Positions 4,708 to 11,414 of a DNA stretch of 64,000 nucleotides are shown piece after piece; the stretch's first letter is position 1; every line of letters starts with the position of its first letter. The translations under genes were made by a program, and so were the position numbers. Source of the DNA: Candidatus Obscuribacterales bacterium (GTDB lineage Bacteria > Cyanobacteriota > Vampirovibrionia > Obscuribacterales > Obscuribacteraceae); assembly GCA_020050835.1 (NCBI GenBank), contig JAGVKB010000066.1, positions 1 to 64,000 of the forward strand, given 5' to 3'. Under the pieces are notes generated by a model. That model ran no database searches, was not told the DNA's origin, and worked only from the letters and a program-made list of their open reading frames with translations.

Positions 4708-5121
4708 TCATTTCATCTCACCGAGGCTGAACGCATCCTTGCTAAACGGCTTGTCGTCGGAGTTAACCCAACTGTTGGCGACACCGGTATAAAGCCCTTC
4801 GACCCCACCGCTGAAAACTCCCCAGGGCAGTGAGATGATGCCAGCCGGCACGAGAAACACCGGATTTCGACTTTCCCCGACCAGCTCTTTGGTGTCACTG
4901 ACGGTGCACTCGACAGACTTGCGAAAGATAGCAATCGGCGTGCCAACTATAACGCCGGTAGTAAATGATGCCAATCGTTGAGTAACATTCTTGCCACCAG
5001 CAACGGAAGGCGAGCCCGTTTTCTTGCCTGACTGCTGCGGACCATCATCTGCGCTGGACGGAGCAGCCAGAGCAATGGCGAGAAAGGAGCCGATTACAGT
5101 CGCAGACCAATATTTGTTCAT
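4708..5121 (-). CDS. Small exported FSLGxMK-family protein, copy 1
   Basis: This is a 137-residue protein with a signal peptide (about residues 1-24, ending ...PSSA). The mature part has two glycine-rich hydrophobic segments (around GVIVGTPIAIF and PAGIISLPWGVFSGG) separated by a charged stretch containing ELVGE. It ends in NSWVNSDDKPFSKD and FSLGEMK. ATG 5121 is chosen over GTG 5130 because AGGTG lies six bases upstream of it. It is one of three local paralogs with the same core (VGTPIA..R.S) and the same extreme C-terminus. Function is unknown. Confidence 0.8.
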   Translation of the reverse strand: MNKYWSATVIGSFLAIALAAPSSADDGPQQSGKKTGSPSVAGGKNVTQRLASFTTGVIVGTPIAIFRKSVECTVSDTKELVGESRNPVFLVPAGIISLPWGVFSGGVEGLYTGVANSWVNSDDKPFSKDAFSLGEMK

Positions 5122-5352
5122 GCTCGACACCTTTTATACTAAGCGGTTGATTATTGATTGGAAAACTTGCCGACAGCTCTCATCTAAGCAATGATTATCT
5201 CCGCCTGACATCCATTGTTGACAAACATTTCACACCACTGCCAGCTCTGTGTGTCAAGGACAGGCTTTGTAATGCTTACGCTTGGCAAGGCGTCACAGCA
5301 AGTAGTTTTGGTGTAGAGTAGGATTAGTTCTCGGGGACAAAAGGGGTCAAGC

Positions 5353-5733
5353 ATGACAAGAAGATTTGCAGCACTTATTTGCGGTACGGCACTTTCAGCA
5401 ATGAGCGCAGCACCGGCATTCGCAGCGGAAGCACCAGATGTAGCCAAAGCGCTCGTACTGACTCCGCTGAGACTGGTGGCTTTTAGTGCTGGTGCAGTGA
5501 TCGGAACTCCGATTGCCGTATTGAGAAAGTCATATGCCAATACGCACGAAACATTCAGCAGTAAGAGCGACAATAAGGTCATGGCTGCAGGCACGGCGCT
5601 GGCTGCGCTTCCAGTTGGAATTTTCACAGGCACGCTGGAAGGTGTCTTTCTTGGAACGAAAAACAGCTGGATGAACAGCACAGAACATCCGTTCGGGAAA
5701 GACTCATTCAGCCTGGGTGAGATGAAAGAATAA
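5353..5733 (+). CDS. Small exported FSLGxMK-family protein, copy 2
   Basis: This 126-residue paralog is divergent from copy 1. Its signal peptide ends near AFAAE (about residue 25). The core GAVIGTPIAVLRKS and the terminal NSWMNSTEHPFGKD and FSLGEMKE are retained, but the middle ELVGE block is replaced by a Ser/Lys/Asn-rich stretch, so it is the most diverged copy. AAGGGG six bases before the ATG is a strong ribosome-binding site. The gene ends in a good intrinsic terminator at 5757-5787, so it is an independent unit. Function is unknown. Confidence 0.8.
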   Translation: MTRRFAALICGTALSAMSAAPAFAAEAPDVAKALVLTPLRLVAFSAGAVIGTPIAVLRKSYANTHETFSSKSDNKVMAAGTALAALPVGIFTGTLEGVFLGTKNSWMNSTEHPFGKDSFSLGEMKE

Positions 5734-5756
5734 CAATTCCATTTTGCTAAATTGAG

Positions 5757-5787
5757 CGGGACGGTGCGCTAAGCACCGCCCCGTTTT
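5757..5787 (+). terminator. Intrinsic terminator of FSLGxMK copy 2
   Basis: An 11-bp GC-rich stem (CGGGACGGTGC with GCACCGCCCCG, one A-C mismatch) and a 5-nt loop are followed directly by TTTT, 24 bases after the stop codon. Confidence 0.8.
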
Positions 5788-5839
5788 ATCAGACAGGCAC
5801 AGTCACGAATTCTCGTAGCTGATAAACTCGACTGATTGC

Positions 5840-6292
5840 TTACTTCATGTCACCCAAGCTGAACGAATCCTTGCTAAAAGGATTGTCATCAGCATTGGTC
5901 CAGGCATTGCCGATTGCATGCGCCAGCCCGTAGATTCCGCCGCTCATGATCCCGGCAGGAACGCCCAGAACTGAAGCAGGAGCGAGTATTAGAGGATTCT
6001 CCGTTTCGCCGACCAGCTCTCTGGTGGCACTGACGACTTCACGCTTTGACATTCTGACAAAGGCAATCGGCGTACCAACTACCACGCCGGCGACAAAGGC
6101 AGGAACATTCTTAGGCACCTTCGAAAACATGCCGCCCAGTCGTCCGATCGGACCAGAGGAGGAGCTTTTGGACGAAGTTTGTGAAGCGTCCGAATCGGTC
6201 TTGGGAGCAGCTGACTCCTCTGCGCCGGAAGGAAGCCTTGTCGCTGCCAAAAGGCTAAAAGCACACAACATTGCTGCAATTGATCGCTTCAT
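5840..6292 (-). CDS. Small exported FSLGxMK-family protein, copy 3
   Basis: This 150-residue paralog is convergent with copy 2. ATG 6292 gives a clean signal peptide (MKRSIAAMLCAFSLLAATRL, then a site near GAEES) and has AAGGA upstream; the longer open frame to 6382 lacks such features. A Ser/Asp-rich linker (about 30-55) precedes the shared core GVVVGTPIAFVRMS, the ELVGE block, a glycine-rich hydrophobic segment, and the terminal NAWTNADDNPFSKD and FSLGDMK. It is closer to copy 1 than to copy 2. Function is unknown. Confidence 0.8.
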   Translation of the reverse strand: MKRSIAAMLCAFSLLAATRLPSGAEESAAPKTDSDASQTSSKSSSSGPIGRLGGMFSKVPKNVPAFVAGVVVGTPIAFVRMSKREVVSATRELVGETENPLILAPASVLGVPAGIMSGGIYGLAHAIGNAWTNADDNPFSKDSFSLGDMK

Positions 6293-6569
6293 GGTAGGTT
6301 CCTTAATGACATTATGTTCTGAAGGTAAGAGCCTGGGAGCAGAGCGTACCTGCTCGATTATCCATGCCTGACAACCGTGCATGGCGAATCAAGCGCCGAA
6401 ATCATCACCCCTGCCTGGAGTAATAGACTTAGACCGACGCTTGCATGCAGCATCGACATCGAAGCACCTGCCAGCCCAGGAATATGTGGTAAATACTGAA
6501 TTAGTAGCAGTTTCAATCTGGCATTCTTTCAAATTCGCCAGAATCGCCGTCGATTTGGAGCCTAAAACT

Positions 6570-7589
6570 ATGCCGGTTTGCCGGTCAATCATTCAAATCG
6601 CACACCGCTCATCCCGAGTTGCTTTACTCTTAATGGTCTGGTGCGCAACCGCCTGCTCAAGCCTAGCTCAAGATGTTGGGATGAATCTTCCCAGCCAATT
6701 GAAACAAGAGATAGGCGATGTGGCAAACTTGCGCAATATAACCACGCAATTTCTCCAAGGCGGAGGGCGCTGGTTCCCCACGCCGAAAGGAGACGACGCA
6801 GATCTCGCCAACTACCTAAGAGATTTGCAAGAACGTCTCGGGCAGTTCAAGCAAGATTGGGACACGAAAGAGTCTCTCGAGACATTGAAACATGACATGC
6901 GTCAGGTCGACGAAAGCTATGACAACGTAGAAGCCACTTTGCCTAAGGTGGGAGGCAATAAGGATGTAGCGAACGACTGGAATGCCGTTCAAAGAGATAT
7001 GTCTGGTGTCCGCCAAACGTTCGATGCGGTCGTTGCAAACAGCGACGGCAGCACGGCCAATAAAGATGAGAGTACACCGACCGTACCAGACCTGATTCAG
7101 AAACTGGGCATGGAAACGCAAGGATACAAAGGCTCGCTCGGCGCGTTTTTGAATATGCCCACCCGAATTCCGCCTAATAACAATGAAGATTTGATGCTGG
7201 TTCAATCACTCAAACAGTTCGAGCAGATGCTCTCCAAATTTGCAAGGGAAACAGAGTTAGGACGTCCAATTCAATTTCTTCAAGAACAGATGAAGCAGAT
7301 TCGATACGTCGCTCGCAAGATGGACCCTTACATGGAGGCTGTCGGTCCGGACGATACAACTATCCAACGCTGGCAACAGATGCGCTCGACGGTCGAGCAA
7401 CTGCATGAGTTGATCGGCAATAAGCCAGAAGGCAGCGATGCGGCTTATCTCGAGCCGATCCCGTCGGCCCAGCCAGCCCAGAGCCTGCCCGGAGTTGGAC
7501 CGGCGGCGGGTCAACCGCAGCCCGGCAGCCGCTTCGGCTCATCCGGAGACGGAGCACCGTTGCCGCAGGACAACCTTCCTGGATTATAA
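6570..7589 (+). CDS. Secreted protein with two duplicated helical modules (family A)
   Basis: This 339-residue protein starts at ATG 6570, which places a signal peptide (MPVCRSIIQ... to SSLAQ) at the N-terminus; the frame is open upstream to 6381 without signal-like sequence. Two related modules of about 100 residues follow. Each begins with a hydrophobic helix and a Pro-rich turn (GRWFPTP in the first, TRIPP in the second), continues with Gln/Leu-rich helices, and ends with a W-centred helix (NDWNAVQRD, QRWQQMRST). The C-terminus is Pro/Gly/Gln-rich. The gene at 8886-9854 is a paralog with the same two-module plan. I recognise no named family. Confidence 0.75.
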   Translation: MPVCRSIIQIAHRSSRVALLLMVWCATACSSLAQDVGMNLPSQLKQEIGDVANLRNITTQFLQGGGRWFPTPKGDDADLANYLRDLQERLGQFKQDWDTKESLETLKHDMRQVDESYDNVEATLPKVGGNKDVANDWNAVQRDMSGVRQTFDAVVANSDGSTANKDESTPTVPDLIQKLGMETQGYKGSLGAFLNMPTRIPPNNNEDLMLVQSLKQFEQMLSKFARETELGRPIQFLQEQMKQIRYVARKMDPYMEAVGPDDTTIQRWQQMRSTVEQLHELIGNKPEGSDAAYLEPIPSAQPAQSLPGVGPAAGQPQPGSRFGSSGDGAPLPQDNLPGL

Positions 7590-8885: not shown

Positions 8886-9854
8886 TTGAGTAAGATTCTG
8901 TCGACACTACTTTGCCTTTTGATGCTTTCCAGTGCCACTGGCAATGTTGCGTCGGCTCAATTTTCAGACTCAAACTTCGCCGGACAGGTCAACAACGTCC
9001 GCAACAATACCCAACAACTGACAAGCAGCGTGACCTCCTTTCTGCAATCGCAGGGGAGATGGTTTCCGCAACCGCAAGGCGCCGACATGCAACTTTGTCA
9101 GGAATTGAGCAACCTCCAACAGCAGGTCGATCGTTTATCACGCGACGCTGGTGGCAGGCAATCGGTGCCGATGTTGCAGGGACAGCTGCAGCAGATTCAA
9201 AACACCACCGGTCGCATCGAGGGGATGTTCGCGATGATCAACCCGAATCGCGATGTCAGACGCAAGTGGAACAGAGTAAAGGATGGCGTGAATTCTGCAT
9301 CGCAAGCGCTTTTCAGCGGCGGTGGCTTCAACCCTTACAATCCCAACCCGTACAATCCGTACAACCCGAATCCATATAACCCGAATCCGTATAATCCGAA
9401 CCCATACAACCCTTACAATCCAAACTTCAACCAACCTTCCGTTAACACTGGAGCCTTAACCAACGCGCTCAAGAAGACAACTAACGATACTCAGCAGATG
9501 ATGAACCAACTGGCTGTCTATCTAGCCACTCCGGGCAGACCGCCGATACCGGCCGGGCAAGACACACAACTGGTGCAAGAGCTCCAAATGTTCCAGCAGC
9601 AGGTCAATAGCATGGTCAGGGACGGCAGCTCCAATCGTTCCTTTCCTTACGTCCAGAGCCAATTGCAACAATTGCAGTTTCGAGCACGCAACATCGACCG
9701 ACTCACCACCACAGTTGCCAACAATCCGTTTGTCCTTCAGAAATGGTGGAACGTAAAATCCAGCCTGGATAAAGCGACTCAAGCATTGTCAGGCGGCGGA
9801 CGCTATTACAACAACGGATTCATCCAAGGTCCCGAAAATAACAACATGTGGTAA
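8886..9854 (+). CDS. Secreted protein with two duplicated helical modules (family A paralog)
   Basis: This 322-residue paralog of the gene at 6570-7589 starts at a TTG with AGAGGG upstream. A signal peptide (residues 1-25, ending ASAQF) leads into module 1 with GRWFPQPQG and a W helix (RRKWNRVKD). A 32-residue Asn-Pro-Tyr repeat linker follows, then module 2 with PGRPPIPAG and QKWWNVKSS. The strong Gln/Leu helical character suggests a coiled-coil or helical-bundle periplasmic or secreted protein. It may be cotranscribed with the Rieske gene (58-bp gap). Function is unknown. Confidence 0.78.
   Translation: MSKILSTLLCLLMLSSATGNVASAQFSDSNFAGQVNNVRNNTQQLTSSVTSFLQSQGRWFPQPQGADMQLCQELSNLQQQVDRLSRDAGGRQSVPMLQGQLQQIQNTTGRIEGMFAMINPNRDVRRKWNRVKDGVNSASQALFSGGGFNPYNPNPYNPYNPNPYNPNPYNPNPYNPYNPNFNQPSVNTGALTNALKKTTNDTQQMMNQLAVYLATPGRPPIPAGQDTQLVQELQMFQQQVNSMVRDGSSNRSFPYVQSQLQQLQFRARNIDRLTTTVANNPFVLQKWWNVKSSLDKATQALSGGGRYYNNGFIQGPENNNMW
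9330..9425 (+). repeat. Asn-Pro-Tyr-Asn-Pro coding repeat
   Basis: These 96 bases encode 32 consecutive residues drawn only from Asn, Pro and Tyr (units NPYNP and NPNPY). They form an extended linker between the two modules of the secreted protein. Synonymous codons vary (aac/aat, cct/ccc/ccg), so it is an older repeat rather than a recent slippage tract. Confidence 0.9.
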
Positions 9855-10052
9855 CTGCCGGAATAGCTGCGCATTAAGTTATTATCCTTACTTCTAGCGT
9901 TCAGTCAGCTGTGCCGCATCACCGGCCGATGCAGCCGATTTGACGATTGGTAGAGCCTCCAGTCGAAGCGAAACAACTTACCGCGTCAGCTGCGCATACG
10001 GACCGCTCATGTTACTCAACAATTGCATTGTCGCTTGGTATCATGTCTAAAT

Positions 10053-11414
10053 ATGCAATTGAATGGTCTACTAAGTTCGCTTCTGGCTATCACTGTCTTT
10101 CTGGCTGGATCAATAAGCTTACCTGCCTGGTCTGCTCAATCGGCGCCGGAGAAGCAAAACAGCGCCGAAAGAGAACCGCTGTCGATTTACAATCGGGTCT
10201 GGCAGCTTGTTCACAACTCATTTTACGAACCCTCATACAACGGTCAGGATTGGGACCGTTGGCAGCATCGCTATGACACGACCATCAAGACCAGCGCCGA
10301 CGCCTACAAGGCTGTCGACACGATGCTGGCCAGCCTCGGTGACCGCTACACGCGCTTTCTTACGCCCGAGGCCTTCAAAGAAGAAACCGAAATGATCGCC
10401 GCCAAGCTGTTCGGAATCGGCATTCAAATGGGCTATGACAAGACACACAAGATTATCGTCATCGCTCCGATTCCAGACACCCCCGCGGCCAGAGCTGGTC
10501 TTATGCCGCTGGATGAAATTATCGAAGTAGATGGCAAGTCGACCCAGGGCATGTCGGTTGAAGCAGTCTCGAAGATGGTCAGGGGCGAACTGAATACACC
10601 GGTCAAAATCACCATCGAACGAAACAAGGAGCGAAAGACTCTGACAATCATTCGCGGAGAGATCCCGATCAAGTCCGTCCAGAAGACGGTTATGCTCAAC
10701 AGCGACATCGGATATGTTCGCTTGAGTACTTTCATCTCATCCAAAGCCAGTGAGGAGATGAAGGAGGCGCTCAGTCAGCTGCTGCCGGCCCGAGGCATAA
10801 TCATCGACCTGAGAGACAATCCAGGCGGACTCGTTACCAATGCCGTCGACATTTGCAACATCTTTCTCAATGGCGGAATCATTGTTTCAACCATCAATCG
10901 GCGCGATCACAAAGTGTCCACAGTCTCTTCGGCCAGACCCTTCTGCAAGCAGCCGCTTGTGGTCTTGATCAATCAAGGCAGCGCGAGCGCATCGGAGATT
11001 ACTGCCGGTGCGCTGCACGATCACGACCGCGCCCAATTGGTCGGACAGAAGAGCTTCGGCAAGGGTCTGGTGCAAGCAATCGAAAAACTGGCGGACGGTT
11101 CGAGCGTTCATATTACGATTGCTCGTTATCTTACTCCCAACGGAACAGACATCAACAAAAAAGGGATCGGCCCTGATTTTGAAGTCAAACTTACCAAGGA
11201 AGACTACCAGGCCGCGCGCGGCCCGTGGTGGCTGGACCCCGGCGGCCCAACCGTCAAGCGTTCACCGGGAGATCTGAAAGACGTCCAACTCAAAAAGGCG
11301 GTCGAAGTCTTAGACAACGCCATTAGTAACGTGCAATCGCCTTACGAACTGAAATTGAACTTTCCGGGCTTCGGTCCTTCTATTCCAGACATAGGCATAC
11401 AAGAGAGAAATTGA
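10053..11414 (+). CDS. Carboxyl-terminal processing protease (S41A, CtpA type)
   Basis: This 453-residue exported serine protease trims or degrades periplasmic proteins from their C-termini. ATG 10053 gives a clear signal peptide ([19 protein letters not shown], cleavage near WSAQS). An N-terminal helical domain ([15 protein letters not shown]), a PDZ domain (about 120-200, [13 protein letters not shown]) and the S41 core follow. The catalytic Ser lies in GSASASEI and the general-base Lys in [16 protein letters not shown] is conserved. A C-terminal tail of about 60 residues follows the core. A shorter paralog lies at 55291-56493. The msrA ribosome-binding site overlaps its stop codon, so the two genes are probably cotranscribed. 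Confidence 0.93.

Follow-up and report, generated by a model that had tools for sequence, protein, structure and literature searches.

A previously undescribed family of exported glycine-zipper proteins in Vampirovibrionia and its possible role in the cell envelope

Vampirovibrionia form the non-photosynthetic sister class of cyanobacteria; most of them are uncultured and their envelope has been little studied. The genome of one such organism, a Candidatus Obscuribacterales bacterium, carries three small neighboring genes in the window considered here (the whole stretch of 64,000 nucleotides that was analyzed), and their products end in much the same way. What are these proteins, and does their common C-terminus act as a sorting or binding tag, as originally predicted, or does it belong to the fold itself? 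The three paralogues were found on alternating strands exactly where they had been predicted (Table 1). The claim that each copy has start signals of its own holds for translation, a purine-rich ribosome-binding site of the AAGG type standing just upstream of each ATG (5121 and 6292 on the minus strand, 5353 on the plus strand), but not for promoters, as a sigma-70 scan came out at chance level (2 found vs. 1.2 expected). An in-frame ATG at 6382 was rejected as the start of member 3 in favor of the ATG at 6292, which is preceded by the ribosome-binding site TTAAGGAAC. Once the three products are aligned, 33 of 151 columns are invariant and fall in the predicted common elements, i.e., GTPIA..R (first read as VGTPIA..R.S), the second glycine-rich segment and the tail PF.KD.FSLG.MK; the linkers were likewise confirmed to be unlike between the copies. 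The other two members are 39 and 45% identical to member 1 in pairwise comparison. This similarity is not due to chance, because a profile built from the trio reaches further members in related genomes with E-values down to 1e-42.

Table 1. Features of the three genes, numbered by window position (aa, amino acids; RBS, ribosome-binding site).
Feature	Position	Strand	Evidence
Family member 1, 137 aa	4708..5121	-	ORF and RBS AAAAGGTG; profile; alignment
Member 1, layout: signal peptide, linker, two zipper helices, tail	4708..5121	-	
Member 1, tail motif PFSKDAFSLG, aa 125-134	4720..4749	-	Alignment; spacing; conservation
Family member 2, 126 aa, shortest linker	5353..5733	+	ORF and RBS AAAAGGGG; profile; AlphaFold2 hairpin
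Member 2, predicted helix 1, aa 28-68, GxxxGTPIAxxR zipper	5434..5556	+	Periodicity; AlphaFold2
Member 2, predicted helix 2, aa 75-111, small residue at each fourth position	5575..5685	+	Periodicity; AlphaFold2
Member 2, tail motif PFGKDSFSLG, aa 113-122	5689..5718	+	Alignment; AlphaFold2
Family member 3, 150 aa	5840..6292	-	RBS TTAAGGAAC ahead of 6292; profile; AlphaFold2 hairpin
Member 3, predicted helix 1, aa 59-94	6011..6118	-	AlphaFold2; periodicity
Member 3, predicted helix 2, aa 100-133	5894..5995	-	AlphaFold2; periodicity
Member 3, tail motif PFSKDSFSLG, aa 138-147	5852..5881	-	Alignment; conservation

The original prediction did not recognize the family, and no named family emerged for its members: scans of Pfam, NCBIfam and PHROGs returned scattered noise only, a PDB sequence search found no relative, none turned up in the plasmids and viral contigs searched, and a limited full-text search of the literature found no description. 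By these searches, the trio belongs to a previously undescribed protein family. The host genome (7.0 Mb, 154 contigs) contains 13 places matched by the profile at E<=10, of which ten have E-values under 1e-3. Counting a later-found fourth array member on contig C2 brings the copy number to ~13-14. Profile searches found relatives in nearly every genome of the host's family and of its order, Obscuribacterales, and the loci found among 84,980 species bear the titles Melainabacteria, Obscuribacterales, cyanobacteria or uncultured bacterium. When 292 genomes sampled across the phylum were searched, the only additions were distant members in other families of the same class; partial matches in f5, located in ORFs of 425-433 aa, were excluded. 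The distant kin occur in two other families of Vampirovibrionia. Relatives from one of them, f7, match the core family in a profile-profile alignment that includes the tail (98.5% probability, E 2.4e-15 for a single comparison), and on profile evidence they are true relatives. Searching with f7 members placed the family in f1, f2, f4 and f7; f3 gave a single weak match, and no members were seen in f5, f6, and f8. The family thus appears to be confined to this non-photosynthetic branch of the cyanobacteria. In a quick tree built on 97 columns, with many open forks, the window copies fall into three different groups, each with relatives from other genomes. This argues against a recent tandem duplication and for a trio that gathers old paralogues: on this tree, the three copies are old, separate lineages that are not each other's closest kin.

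Altogether, 121 ORFs of the family were collected, 78 of which were aligned. All members examined begin with an AxA signal peptide that has a short positive start, a hydrophobic core and no lipobox; in the alignment the AxA site is followed by A, D or E, with no Cys at +1. Members are therefore predicted to carry a Sec/SPase-I export signal and, as the glycine-rich segments also number two throughout the family, the description of the trio as exported, glycine-rich proteins was borne out. The signal peptide is followed by a linker, the two glycine-rich segments and the tail, the linker being the sole strongly variable part (up to ~280 residues, with tenfold variation). Invariant or nearly invariant residues are, in member 3 numbering, G69, G73, P75, A77, R80, P112, G122, N129, P138, F139, S145, and L146. 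Small residues (G/A/S) occupy every fourth position in both segments, in 95-100% of sequences at 65/69/73/77 of helix 1 (permutation p=0.03) and in 63-100% from 106 to 130 of helix 2 (permutation p=0.0002), so that each helix would present one flat face, i.e., a glycine zipper. AlphaFold2 models of two paralogues, made from two alignments, agree on two long antiparallel helices plus a short tail helix, with a mean pLDDT of 81 for member 2 and 73 for member 3 and pTM values of 0.48 and 0.59 for the two monomer models (moderate confidence). Confidence is ~77-90 over the helices and low over the linker where it is long, and the tail block averages 85 in the second model. The structure that had been sought for the glycine-rich segments is thus an antiparallel helical hairpin in both models, and the mature chain probably folds in this way, although a partly soluble or a peripheral hairpin is also conceivable. 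Foldseek found no match below E 1 for either model. One ORF of 335 aa (L157:4813-5817) contains the domain twice in tandem and resembles a natural dimer.

The genomic surroundings of the family differ from paralogue to paralogue. Neighbors of the trio with known domains are a histidine kinase, a PP2C phosphatase, a K+ channel, a Rieske oxygenase and an S41 protease, and at L047 a family relative adjoins a similar Rieske gene and a kinase. The trio is not located beside lpx or ispH genes; such linkage is found for other members. On contig C2 of the same genome, a four-gene family array (254.5-256.3 kb; L080:4482-6332) follows fabZ-lpxA-MFS-GT28-GT2, and co-directional arrays located after fabZ, lpxA, an MFS gene, in some cases a GT28 gene, and a GT2 gene occur in 17 genomes, a count that includes the host (L200 plus L080). 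The array members keep their order and their own tails (KPFSKDAFTFKDE; KPFSTESYLVTEE; KPFSRWSYITMEEK; YPSPHSGSHSM.FQGKGFVVPYDDNY), the tail of the fourth gene being different but equally conserved. A single member and ispH are arranged divergently in 24 f1 (Obscuribacterales) genomes and in 11 of f7; the host's own divergent pair with ispH (LytB) is at L081:3897-5697 on contig C17. As the pair is found in both f1 and f7, it probably predates the split of these families. Further paralogues are found near Pit-type phosphate transporter or ftsX genes and, on contigs C30 (L082:5851-7878) and C5 (L079:7186-11233), beside genes for YadA-like trimeric autotransporters. Each of the latter two loci also encodes a TPR protein, and these two proteins are 43% identical. 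A search of the loci fetched from other genomes did not show the YadA-like link, so it is based on the host genome only. Near the C30 member, an ORF of 1115 aa (L082:1-3345) contains multiple AAA modules together with an FtsH-like M41 peptidase domain.

Although gene neighborhood is no proof of function, the members located beside lipid A and isoprenoid genes suggest that the family probably helps to build or organize the outer membrane. Taken together, export, the hairpin with two zippers, the lipid A linkage and the autotransporter neighbors point to an oligomeric membrane protein of the envelope, probably of the outer membrane, which would work in a SlyB-like manner; we hold this reading tentatively, with a little less than even confidence. 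The Sec-exported chains would fold into two-helix hairpins with a glycine-zipper face on each helix and insert into a membrane of the envelope, most likely the outer one, where the zippers would mediate assembly into homo- or hetero-oligomers. At the membrane surface, the tail PF(S)K(D)SFSLG would fold back on, or dock to, a neighboring hairpin or an envelope partner, while differences in linker and tail would tell the paralogues apart. The likely task of such assemblies would be structural, i.e., to organize or stabilize the lipid-protein environment of the outer membrane while it is being synthesized. No assembly factor or tail partner was identified. An unnamed family with up to 13-14 copies per genome and with linkage to lipid A and isoprenoid genes across the order may well be a core component of the Vampirovibrionia envelope, and its sequence model allows many “hypothetical proteins” of these genomes to be named.

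SlyB, with which this role was compared, assembles into ring-shaped oligomers that span the outer membrane (PMC13067283). Like the SlyB/17-kDa-antigen type (PF05433), the members of the new family are small exported proteins, probably of the envelope, in which two helices bear glycine zippers, and the GxxxG-type zipper hairpin expected of PF05433 proteins is also predicted for them. Unlike PF05433 proteins, which have a lipoprotein signal with Cys at +1, they would be cleaved by SPase I, and they differ from SlyB by a P conserved in both helices, an R that follows helix 1 and the PFSKDSFSLG tail. Membership in the SlyB/PF05433 family was rejected: PF05433 matches 0 of 43 members and nothing above cut-off anywhere in the host genome, and the lipobox is missing. 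Weak matches of the distant f7 relatives to the YMGG-like Gly-zipper family PF13441 (best E 0.0066) and to Romo1 PF10247 (best E 0.00068), both below the curated cut-off in the f7 member shown in full, and a single weak Romo1 match among core members (E 0.07) would reflect the Gly-zipper hairpin, a generic zipper resemblance. Proteins of the exosortase-associated family TIGR04073 are about 120 aa long and have a signal peptide and glycine-rich segments; this identity was also rejected, since the TIGR04073 model matches no member (none at E 0.1; the best hit, at E 0.56, is in a frame with stops). A bolder extension of the SlyB-like reading is that a lineage-specific outer-membrane scaffold of Vampirovibrionia replaces the SlyB/17-kDa-type zipper proteins and that the four fabZ-lpxA hairpins and their paralogues hetero-oligomerize, with a composition set by paralogue-specific tails, which we regard as unlikely.

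The tail is where the alternatives can first be weighed. It occupies the last 10-16 residues in the trio, as the original prediction of an extreme C-terminal motif had it, and usually lies 3-8 residues from the end in the wider family; that description does not extend to some members, f7 included, in which 10-30 further residues follow. The motif itself is common property: a PFSKDSFSLG-like tail ends most copies, the strict form PF....[FY]S[LMV] being located within the last 30 residues of 84 of the 121 ORFs and a relaxed form in 103, and its P, F, S, and L are conserved at ~90% or more. A conserved motif so close to the C-terminus of exported proteins would be expected of a tag for sorting or secretion that a dedicated machine recognizes, comparable to PEP-CTERM, LPXTG or type IX signals. 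Yet the motif is restricted to one domain: across the host genome, the DNA pattern for D.FSLG is C-terminal in family members only, its other matches being internal (e.g., in apparent protein kinases) or out of frame, so that no unrelated protein ends in it. The helices precede the motif and few residues come after it, with neither the C-terminal anchor helix nor the basic end of sortase-type tags. Moreover, 7 residues separate it from the end of helix 2 in 67 of 89 cases measured, and its conservation when extra residues follow indicates that a free carboxylate is not needed. A sorting tag is consequently very improbable. Even less credible is the idea that the tail marks the proteins for degradation or processing by the S41/PDZ protease whose gene (10023-11414) lies ~4 kb from the trio. 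PDZ and S41 proteins generally prefer hydrophobic free C-termini, whereas 82 of 118 family sequences end in D, E or K and the others in variable residues. Fixed spacing to helix 2, a variable last residue and a family-only motif argue instead for a structural or docking element, and the tail seems to belong to the fold or to serve in docking. Of the two tag functions originally suggested, sorting was thereby set aside, and binding stays plausible in view of the spacing, the conservation and the paralogue-specific tails of the four-gene array.

Where the hairpins reside is the subject of the main rival, according to which they are small accessory subunits in the inner membrane, with both termini in the periplasm and a tail that binds a partner complex. 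The loop between the helices carries more positive charge than does the C-tail in 70 of 78 aligned members, a pattern that is equally compatible with this location, and paralogues do occur near varied transport and envelope genes such as those for the Pit-type phosphate transporter and ftsX. Hydrophobicity gives a divided answer: it is moderate overall (KD 1.83 for helix 1 and 1.57, borderline, for helix 2), and the usual inner-membrane threshold is reached by helix 1 in 77% of members but by helix 2 in 47% only. The lipid A linkage favors the outer membrane, and since neighbors differ between paralogues, no common partner complex is visible; inner-membrane subunits thus seem possible, if doubtful. 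The original suggestion of pore-forming peptides corresponds to secreted pore-forming or contact-killing proteins akin to the Caulobacter Cdz system. Class IIb bacteriocins typically have glycine zippers, and so do CdzC/CdzD, exported proteins with extended GxxxG stretches that rely on type I secretion and an immunity protein (PMC5380434). Zippers that oligomerize and many paralogues per genome would suit such a function, but nothing points to a toxin. The family differs from Cdz, however, by its Sec signals and its hairpin with a tail, and no such cassette was found: scanned neighbors in the window, some of which have no family, matched no exporter or immunity family and included no ABC exporter, and the identified genes next to the trio encode the K+ channel, PP2C phosphatase and Rieske protein. 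Single-copy orthologues keep the same neighbors across genera, unlike fast-moving toxins, and plasmids and viral contigs yielded no relatives. With a Sec signal, orthologues that are conserved and no exporter or immunity gene in sight, the case for a bacteriocin-like role is weak, and such a role is, in our judgment, improbable.

Other exported proteins surround the trio. Several, of no known family, are interspersed among its neighbors in the window, and an MsrA-like gene, recognized by eye, follows the gene for the S41 C-terminal protease with its PDZ domain (10023-11414). Two paralogous exported proteins of no known family, encoded at 6381-7589 and 8886-9854, flank the Rieske gene; they are 24% identical (E 7e-26) and share a GRWFP.P.G motif, and the second also contains an NPYNP repeat.
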